Positions 34,984 to 39,271 of a stretch of DNA of 64,000 nucleotides are shown here, piece by piece. Source of the DNA: Methanosarcina barkeri str. Wiesmoor. GTDB lineage: Archaea > Halobacteriota > Methanosarcinia > Methanosarcinales > Methanosarcinaceae. The stretch's first letter is position 1, and each line of letters starts with the position of its first letter. Position numbers and translations under genes: made by a program. The notes under the pieces were generated by a model, which ran no database searches, was not told the DNA's origin, and saw only the letters and a list, made by a program, of their open reading frames with translations. The stretch is from the NCBI RefSeq assembly GCF_000969985.1, contig NZ_CP009526.1, positions 2,852,001-2,916,000 on the forward strand. Direction: 5' to 3'.

Positions 34984-35377
34984 ATCTGGAACTGGACATG
35001 GATCATCTACTGAAAACCATAATTATGTATTTAGTTTTAACATTGGTTTGGAAGGAACCTAATGTCTAATGTATCCTGTCTACTGTTTTCCCAACTCTAT
35101 GCCGGATTGCGCAAGAAAATGCATAGAATTAGAATCTGTTCTATCTCAAGCCTGGGCAGGGTTGAGCTCCCGTCCACCTACCACTTAATCTCTATTTTTG
35201 TTCTCAAAAATTAGAGAAGTCAGCCAGACGCCGGAAGAACAGGAAGATTGCGAAAAAATTATTGAGGCAGCCAGAATATCACGGTAAATTCAATATAGGG
35301 AGTAGGTCCTACGATGCGATCACTCTTTTTTACAGCTGTTTCGTTTTTCGAACCGCTACAGAAGGCACCAATTATCT
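34984..35377. other. Spacer with a possible gene tail
   Basis: No full gene. A short open stretch ending TPEEQEDCEKIIEAARISR at about 35224-35287 looks protein-like and may be the C-terminal remnant of a lost gene. Confidence 0.35.
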
Positions 35378-36091
<714 letters not shown>

Positions 36092-37163: not shown

Positions 37164-37808
37164 ATGGCAACCAAAGATGAACTTATTCAGGAGCTTTCTG
37201 ATGCAGTCATCTCCTGTAAAAAAGATGCAGTGCTCGCAGCTGTTAATAAAGCAAAAGATGTTATGGAACCAGCTGAGATCATTGACAAAGGTCTTTCTGC
37301 AGGCATGAACCAGGTAGGAATTCTTTTTGAGAGGGGGAAACTTTTCCTGCCCCATGTGATGATGGCTGCTGATGCAATGACATCAGGAGTTAAAGTTCTT
37401 GAAGCTGAGCTCCCTGCAGGGACAGAGAGCAAGAAACTAGGGGTTATCGTAAACGGTACGGTCGAAGGCGACGTCCACGATATAGGCAAGTCCATAGTAT
37501 CCACTATGCTCCAGTCTTCTGGTTTTGAAGTCTACGACATTGGCCGTGATGTTCCGGTCAGGAACTTCATCGAAAAGGCAAAAGAAGTCGATGCCAATAT
37601 GATTGGAATTTCCGCCCTTATGACCACAACTCTTCAGGGGCAAAAAGATGTAATTGAGTTCCTCAAGGAAGAAGGGCTAAGGGACAAAGTAAAAGTCATG
37701 GTAGGCGGAGCCCCTGCAACCCAGGCCTGGGCTGACAAGATCGGTGCAGATTGCTATGCTGAAAACGCAAGTGAAGCTGTCGCAAAAGCAAAGGAAATGC
37801 TACTCTGA
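37164..37808 (+). CDS. mtbC: Dimethylamine corrinoid protein
   Basis: 214 aa. It carries the methyl group on its cobalamin between the dimethylamine methyltransferase and the CoM methylase. The N-terminal helical cap (about 1-90) is followed by the B12-binding Rossmann domain with GDVHDIGKSI (His105, lower cobalt ligand) and VMVGGAP. Size and domains are shared by MtmC and MttC, so assignment to dimethylamine rests on the adjacent mtbB. GGAGGTG lies 6 bases upstream of the ATG. Confidence 0.92.
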   Translation: MATKDELIQELSDAVISCKKDAVLAAVNKAKDVMEPAEIIDKGLSAGMNQVGILFERGKLFLPHVMMAADAMTSGVKVLEAELPAGTESKKLGVIVNGTVEGDVHDIGKSIVSTMLQSSGFEVYDIGRDVPVRNFIEKAKEVDANMIGISALMTTTLQGQKDVIEFLKEEGLRDKVKVMVGGAPATQAWADKIGADCYAENASEAVAKAKEMLL

Positions 37809-37867: not shown

Positions 37868-39271
37868 ATGGCAACTGAATATGCTTTGCGTATGGGAGAC
37901 GGTAAACGTATCTACCTTACCAAAGAAAAGATAATTGCAGAGATCGAAGACGGAACTGCAAATGCTGCCGATTTTGGTGAAATTCCTGCTCTGAACGCCA
38001 ATGAAATGGAGAAGCTTGCAGAGATCCTTATGATGCCTGGCAAGACCGTTAGTGTCGAACATGGTATGGAAGTTCCTGTAACACACGATATCGGCACTAT
38101 CAGGCTTGATGGGGACCAGGGAAACAGTGGTGTTGGTATTCCTTCCAGCCGTTTAGTTGGCTGCATGACGCATGAGAGGGCTTTCGGTGCTGACACAATG
38201 GAACTCGGGCACATTGATTACAGTTTCAAGCCGGTAAAACCTGTCGTATCAAACGAGTGCCAGGCAATGGAAGTCTGCCAGCAGAACATGATTATTCCAC
38301 TGTTTTACGGTGCAATGCCCAATATGGGGCTTTACTATACACCGGATGGACCCTTTGAGAACCCCGGCGACCTCATGAAGGCTTTCAAGATCCCAGAAGC
38401 CTGGGAATCAATGGAACACGCTGCAGAACACCTGACAAGAGACACAGTTTGGGTAATGCAGAAACTCTTTGCCTCTGGTGCTGATGGTGTCAACTTTGAC
38501 ACAACCGGTGCAGCAGGCGACGGTGACATGTATGGTACACTCCATGCGATTGAAGCCCTCAGAAAAGAGTTCCCTGATATGTATATTGAAGCAGGAATGG
38601 CCGGGGAATGCGTACTTGGTATGCACGGAAACCTTCAGTATGACGGCGTAACCCTTGCAGGACTCTGGCCTCACCAGCAGGCCCCACTTGTTGCAAAAGC
38701 CGGAGCAAATGTTTTCGGACCAGTATGCAACACCAATACCAGCAAAACCTCAGCCTGGAACCTTGCCCGTGCAGTTACTTTCATGAAGGCAGCCGTCGAA
38801 GCATCTCCAATACCCTGTCACGTTGACATGGGAATGGGTGTGGGCGGAATACCGATGCTTGAAACGCCTCCTATTGATGCAGTCACAAGGGCAAGCAAAG
38901 CAATGGTAGAAATTGCAGGCGTAGACGGCATATAGATCGGGGTCGGCGACCCAATGGGTATGCCGATCGCACACATAATGGCTTCAGGTATGACAGGAAT
39001 GAGAGCTGCAGGAGACCTTGTTGCAAGAATGGAGTTCTCAAAGAATATGCGCATAGGTGAAGCAAAAGAGTACGTCGCAAAGAAACTTGGTGTCGACCAG
39101 ATGGACCTCGTAGACGAGCACGTTATGCGCGAGCTGCGTGAAGAACTCGATATTGGTATTATAACGTCGGTACCAGGCGCTGCAAAAGGTATTGCTGCAA
39201 AGATGAACATCGAAAAGTTGCTCGATATTAAGATTAATTCCTGCAATCTCTTCAGAAAGCAGATAGCGTAA
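37868..39271 (+). CDS. mtbB: Dimethylamine methyltransferase containing pyrrolysine
   Basis: Transfers a methyl group from dimethylamine to the MtbC corrinoid. Read through the in-frame TAG at 38933-38935, the product is 467 residues with pyrrolysine at 356; both numbers match known MtbB, not MtmB (458 aa, Pyl202) or MttB (about 495 aa, Pyl334). Sequence continues in the same frame after the TAG ([19 protein letters not shown]) to TAA at 39269. The ATG at 37868 is chosen because the earlier ATG (37856) overlaps the GGAGG. It is 59 bp after mtbC. No pyl genes are in the window. Confidence 0.95.
38933..38967 (+). promoter_or_regulatory. Amber (Pyl) codon followed by a nested stem-loop
   Basis: TAG is followed at once by ATCGG (38936-38940) that pairs with CCGAT (38963-38967). 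Inside, GGGTC-ggc-GACCC pairs, sharing the G residues at the base. It sits where PYLIS-type elements have been proposed in methylamine methyltransferase genes. Confidence 0.6.

Follow-up and report, generated by a model that had tools for sequence, protein, structure and literature searches.

Whether the mRNA helps in the decoding of pyrrolysine codons has been debated since the PYLIS element was proposed. Reviews lean towards no; the available parts of two of them state that a cis element is not required and that conservation of structure is slight (PMC8211752, PMC9499178). For mtmB, replacement of PYLIS decreased the full-length product and increased the truncated one, and the element was not essential; in the part of that paper available to us, mtbB showed nothing resembling the mtmB element, and covariance in mtmB was limited (PMC2933860). 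A second study, as far as its available part goes, ranked genes by structural-similarity and synonymous-codon features and gave consensus structures for two genes, mtmB and mtbB, but not for mttB, and called these structures not necessarily correct (PMC3639795). Effects of weakening or removing the element on UAG translation are reported for mtmB only in the available portions of both papers (PMC2933860, PMC3639795). The literature searched yielded neither probing nor readthrough data for mtbB. The mtbB consensus of Have et al. 2013 (PMC3639795) is probably the one linked to Rfam family RF02509 (PYLIS_2), the mtbB counterpart of RF01982 (PYLIS_1, mtmB).

The window analyzed here is a 64,000-nt stretch of the Methanosarcina barkeri str. 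Wiesmoor genome. Its mtbB gene (37868–39271, + strand; PF09505, TIGR02368) encodes dimethylamine:corrinoid methyltransferase, with a product of 467 residues (1047.6 bits to NCBIfam TIGR02368) when the single in-frame TAG is read as pyrrolysine. This copy is one of three mtbB genes in the genome, each with one in-frame TAG; here the codon, read from the sequence, occupies 38933–38935 (+). The ORF that precedes mtbB (214 residues, 37164–37808) presumably encodes the corrinoid protein MtbC, which it resembles. Elsewhere in the window are an eL15-Euryarchaeota ribosomal protein leader (Rfam RF03144; 57524–57575, − strand; 46.5 bits) and an ORF (35372–36091, − strand) in which a lipoprotein-like start is followed by a long poly-Ser/Asn tract; the opposite strand reads poly-Leu. 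The two-stem PYLIS_2 model (RF02509) matches at 38933–39032 (+; 111.4 bits, gathering 36, E = 5e-27), spanning model positions 1–100 of 100 and starting at the T of TAG. Because this match covers the region, the element is already known. The initial annotation, which had suggested a PYLIS-type structure after the UAG, is supported in this respect: PYLIS_2 sits exactly here, and codon-level selection on it is visible.

A hairpin better than chance follows the mtbB UAG, but it is not the one that was first drawn. The hairpin supported by energy, codon shuffles and covariation consists of PYLIS_2 stem 1 plus two pairs, at 38941–38968 (+). Nucleotides 38941–38952 pair with 38956–38968 (GGUCGGCGACCC with GGGU.A.UGCCGAUC), leaving a loop at 38953–38955, a bulged A38960 and a 5-nt spacer between the UAG and the first pair. 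Counted from the T of TAG, its pairs run from 9–36 to 16–29 and from 17–27 to 20–24. The initial annotation had instead drawn nested stems at 38936–38967 (+), with ATCGG/CCGAT (38936–38940 and 38963–38967) around GGGTC/GACCC (38940–38944 and 38948–38952). The letters are there, and the stretches are complementary; the pairing is neither favored nor conserved. The drawn stems give −6.9 kcal/mol, compared with −18.3 kcal/mol for the supported hairpin. The two drawn stems have G38940 in common and can form no more than 5+4 or 4+5 pairs together, and ATCGG adjoins the TAG with zero nucleotides between rather than starting 1 nt after it. In the 39-nt segment, the ensemble is almost wholly the supported hairpin, and the drawn pairs have a probability of 0.0. 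When the 35-nt segment was compared with dinucleotide shuffles, z was −2.38, and 4 of 200 shuffles folded as well.

To look beyond this genome, we collected 337 mtbB gene matches; 301 of them cover the site, and removal of redundancy left 282. Of these, 268 are 400 codons or longer, and 254 serve as representatives <97% identical to one another. The genes come from Methanosarcinaceae, Methanomassiliicoccales, Bacillota and one other archaeal family (f14), whose lone representative was pooled with Methanosarcinaceae in the Gly-codon, silent-conservation/parsimony, 87-sequence pair-covariation and 143-gene fold counts. Group labels follow kinship: Methanomassiliicoccales is the order of the genome with the Methanomethylophilus locus, Bacillota the phylum of the genome with the Thermincola locus, and genus labels are those of the nearest named locus. 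TAG stands at the UAG column in 282/282 non-redundant site-spanning genes, a count in which genes with TAA or TGA would be split and left out; no homologue without TAG at the site was found among them. Viral contigs gave 42 pattern matches, none of which encodes an mtbB relative. Because the protein is so conserved at the site that ordinary covariation is nearly blind, synonymous codons were shuffled within each gene, holding protein and codon use fixed, and folding energies were compared. Gene-wide fold scans covered 84 of the 254 representatives (18 from the Methanosarcina set, 28 other Methanosarcinaceae, 24 Methanomassiliicoccales and 14 Bacillota).

In the 39 nt that follow the TAG, the 55 genes of the Methanosarcina set had a mean z of −2.96, and 87 other Methanosarcinaceae representatives one of −2.57. 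In the gene-wide scan of 46 of these 142 genes, windows +2, +1 and +3 ranked first to third of 438 (z = −3.03, −2.92 and −2.47, respectively); the next-best window reached −1.78, and the mean of all windows was −0.24 (SD 0.45). By genus, the signal was strongest in Methanolobus (z = −3.92; 32/34 significant) and weak in Methanococcoides (z = −1.04; 2/16). Codon shuffles gave no hairpin signal in Methanimicrococcus mtbB (z = −0.29; 0/5 significant). Nor did they give any structural constraint in Methanosarcinaceae at stem 2 of the Rfam model (model 73–92; 39005–39024, +), where z was +0.53 in the Methanosarcina set (2/55 significant) and +0.19 in the others (1/87). By computation, stem 1 of PYLIS_2 forms and is under structural constraint in Methanosarcinaceae.

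Synonymous conservation was scanned in 79 Methanosarcinaceae genes <90% identical, and the peak 11-codon window of mtbB starts at codon −1 (0.33 versus a mean of 0.092, SD 0.057, over 369 windows). Among 43 conserved Gly columns, the two most restricted to a single codon are +8 (GGT, 94%) and +4 (GGC, 87%), and the wobble bases of both pair in the hairpin. On a tree built without the hairpin region, parsimony counts 5 changes at Gly+8 and 9 at Gly+4, compared with 16–45 at the 40 other counted Gly columns. Such restricted use of silent codons among relatives suggests that the hairpin is maintained by selection. We consider the evidence of selection on the catalogued hairpin in Methanosarcinaceae fairly strong and, as far as the literature was searched, new: no earlier codon-shuffle test of the mtbB element was found in the open-licence literature searched, which does not prove its absence.

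The sequence upstream of the UAG was also surveyed. A second folding signal lies at mtbB codons −17 to −5 (mean z = −1.44; 31/87 significant among Methanosarcinaceae outside the Methanosarcina set). The codon just before the UAG (38930–38932) is ATA in 136/142 Methanosarcinaceae representatives, whereas ATA makes up 12–15% of Ile codons in the rest of the gene. At this position, Bacillota mtbB genes have TTG or TTA (29/30), mtmB mostly ATA, GTT or GTC, and mttB many codons. A base rule shared upstream of the UAG was therefore rejected.

Covariation was assessed in 87 distinct 51-nt sequences. In the hairpin, 89.8% of cells are paired, and both sides are changed in 39 cells, versus 16.0 in shuffles. 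Slid versions of the hairpin score lower for paired cells (at most 41.5%), for both-side-changed cells and pairs, and for covariation score; in further pair types, two slid versions reach 14 versus 13 for the hairpin. Pair 12–33, which joins two wobble positions, switches between C-G (57 sequences) and U-A (17) and is broken in 13. The third bases of Val+3 and Pro+10 read C-G in 106 and U-A in 22 of 133 rows, with 5 mismatched. In the third mtbB copy of the genome, A-U replaces G-C at pair 9–36. The outermost and innermost pairs hold less well, 9–36 being broken in 38/87 sequences and 20–24 in 30/87. By parsimony, double switches at 12–33 are few (three CG to TA, one TA to CG). This pair stands 417th among all 35,778 third-site pairs and 29th among the 2,168 short-range ones, a low position since lineage base composition also couples sites. 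The RNAalifold consensus energy is weak (−2.74 kcal/mol). Overall, covariation support for the hairpin is modest. For the nested stems, the outcome largely matches what the initial annotation had named as refuting them, a lack of compensatory changes: the two informative pairs, 6–33 and 9–19, are broken in 45/87 and 52/87 distinct homologues, respectively. With this and their much lower stability, we rejected them as a functional element.

For comparison, we analyzed mtbB from other lineages. In Methanomassiliicoccales, the 39 nt after the TAG gave a mean z of −1.22 (81 genes), and in the gene scan (24 genes) windows +1 to +3 were the top three of 435 (best z = −2.07). In 21 of these genes (e.g. 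L217, L245), a longer, register-shifted hairpin is predicted (GUGGGNGAC with GUCCCCCAC; z = −2.42). It uses the 5′ strand as in Methanosarcina, with a partner ∼7 nt farther on (pairs 10–42 to 18–34, inner pairs 22–32 to 24–30), and Val+3 is GTG in 21/21, versus 22% of Val codons in the same genes. Eight Methanosarcina-like genes gave z = −2.14, and the remaining 52 gave −0.96. The strongest synonymous conservation in Methanomassiliicoccales mtbB lies at codons +91 to +105, near the 3′ end, perhaps the start region of the next gene.

Bacillota mtbB showed no signal at stem 1 (z = −0.06; 1/30 significant; window +1 ranked 170 of 428 in the 14-gene scan). Bacillota loci L213 and L255 nonetheless match the PYLIS_2 model at 89 and 98 bits, so matching the Rfam model does not by itself prove a structure. 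In the same 14 genes, folding is strongest at windows +20 to +22 (best z = −2.15, rank 1 of 428), where synonymous conservation in Bacillota also peaks. At codons +21 to +33, the stem 2 position of PYLIS_2, z was −2.01, with 16/30 significant. The 13-pair stem has a covariation score of 0.269 versus 0.147 in shuffles. Pair 75–90 shows three-way wobble covariation (U-A 15, C-G 5, A-U 4, U-G 4, broken 2) and ranks 9th of 25,878 third-site pairs; pair 78–87 (C-G 23, U-A 5, U-G 2, broken 0) ranks 944th. Pairs 73–92 and 69–96 are poor, being broken in 19/30 and 14/30. At codons +22 to +32 of these loci (e.g. L260, L255, L264), the hairpin has the loop AGAU, with GGA GAT in 27/30, and the covarying wobble partners are ACT/GTA, ACC/GTG and ACA/GTT, and GCC/CTG and GCT/CTA.

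It may be, though we hold this only tentatively, that mtbB in three lineages keeps lineage-specific hairpins after the UAG: stem 1 in Methanosarcinaceae, the shifted hairpin in part of Methanomassiliicoccales, and a hairpin ∼65–95 nt downstream in Bacillota. The element would then have been re-invented rather than simply inherited, with pyrrolysine decoding under widespread cis control. If true, this would run counter to the prevailing idea that such decoding can do without mRNA context.

The mtmB set, with 30 loci plus 23 stretches with TAG and 17 stretches without TAG, allowed comparison of genes with and without the UAG. In mtmB with TAG, window +2 was rank 1 of 424 (z = −2.65; 53 genes), whereas mtmB homologues that encode Met or Phe there instead showed no signal (z = −0.24, rank 155 of 427; 18 genes). 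With more shuffles, z was −2.36 for the 53 genes with TAG and −1.93 for the 13 from matched genera, versus −0.20 for the 18 without TAG. The homologues with Met or Phe replacing pyrrolysine are L399–L415 and a further match in L359; three of this type, searched against NCBIfam, gave no match. A related pyrrolysine-free homologue is described, in the available part of PMC13044021, as required for tetramethylammonium use. In mttB (30 loci), the signal was slight despite the UAG (6/25 significant). At windows +1 to +4, z ranged from −0.78 to −1.23 (ranks 16–41 of 469), not outstanding, and mttB was rejected as a third case. A few mttB matches, in G183 and G339 (L389, L390) and G279 (L369), contain TGA besides TAG, or TAA; possibly the start was called too far upstream, or these genes are decayed. 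Codon-level selection after the UAG in mtbB and mtmB, missing in UAG-free mtmB homologues, suggests that cells gain something from the hairpin. The codon data also point to silent bases worth changing and could guide the choice of amber-codon contexts in genetic code expansion.

Probably, the mtbB feature is stem 1 of PYLIS_2, drawn in the wrong register at first, and biases the UAG toward pyrrolysine over termination. A ribosome with the UAG in its A site would meet the hairpin near the mRNA entry. The hairpin would most likely slow the ribosome and disfavor termination by the archaeal release factor; Pyl-tRNA would gain time, and more full-length MtbB would be made. We infer the effect on decoding and its mechanism, an action favoring pyrrolysine being indicated by the place of the hairpin, the mtmB parallel and the UAG-free control. 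The hairpin signal is weak, slight or missing in Methanococcoides, Methanimicrococcus, Bacillota mtbB and mttB, though all carry the UAG.

Silent-site conservation could also stem from codon-pair or tRNA effects by the UAG, from co-translational folding or from a sequence motif, the hairpin being a by-product. This would fit the conserved ATA at codon −1, which takes no part in the hairpin, and some of the double changes do track base composition. Yet the freezing falls on codons +4 and +8, which both pair through their wobble bases, and Val+3 and Pro+10 switch together. Moreover, the 21 Methanomassiliicoccales genes with the invariant GTG form a hairpin by other pairing at the same place. We think a by-product unlikely.

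Alternatively, the hairpin could act in the opposite direction, aiding termination at the UAG under pyrrolysine shortage, as a ribosome-termination-type structure. The codon data show that the hairpin is kept and are silent on the direction of its action. Growth on dimethylamine requires full-length MtbB, which argues against such a role. For bacteria, a role in translation re-initiation has been proposed for a structure immediately 3′ of stop codons (available part of PMC7518266), but the product shift after PYLIS replacement in mtmB, described above, runs the other way (available part of PMC2933860). An aid to termination thus seems improbable.

A third alternative is a ribosome-driven switch, in which the UAG lies in a stem before translation, and the ribosome frees the 3′ arm, which refolds as the PYLIS_2 hairpin. 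In a 148-nt fold, an alternative, unproven structure at 38926–38965 (+) pairs 38926–38933 with 38958–38965 around 38940–38944/38948–38952 and locks the U of the UAG in a stem; the inner GGGTC/GACCC stem is preserved solely in this structure. With ten extra upstream bases, the two folds are near isoenergetic (−19.6 versus −18.3 kcal/mol; pair probabilities 0.55 versus 0.45, for naked RNA), and a switch would account for the ATA preceding the UAG. But the UAG-burying fold is predicted in 51 of 143 genes, compared with 85 for the hairpin, and ATA is kept in 7/9 rows whose codon +8 partner base is not T. In addition, shuffling upstream codons with ATA fixed gave z = −0.74 and −0.05, weak codon support for this fold. 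We regard the switch as very improbable. That the nested stems themselves are the functional element is hardly credible: they are present in the window and 84.8% of their cells pair across the 87 homologues, but the protein sequence dictates most of the paired cells, the informative pairs do not hold, and the structure is 11 kcal/mol less stable than the hairpin.

Among known systems, viral stimulators of UAG readthrough (for example, the murine leukemia virus pseudoknot) likewise place a structure a few nucleotides downstream of a read-through UAG; mtbB differs in having a plain hairpin and a dedicated tRNA, and in using the ribosome and release factor of an archaeon. Bacterial SECIS, which is obligatory and binds SelB, also works in cis from a position immediately 3′ to a recoded stop codon. 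Conservation of the SECIS kind, in all UAG-using genes, was not seen here, with no stem-1 signal in Bacillota or Methanimicrococcus mtbB and a slight one in mttB; and, unlike for SECIS, no such strict need is known for pyrrolysine (available part of PMC2933860). PYLIS_1 of mtmB (RF01982) is also a hairpin close 3′ of a UAG-pyrrolysine codon, with similar codon-shuffle strength, but its sequence and pairing are different, and its main stem is farther from the UAG (pairs 17–32 to 21–28). Stem 2 of PYLIS_2 (RF02509) has codon-level support in Bacillota and none in Methanosarcinaceae. With RF02509, the element described here shares gene, coordinates and stem 1, to which it adds two pairs, 9–36 and 20–24.
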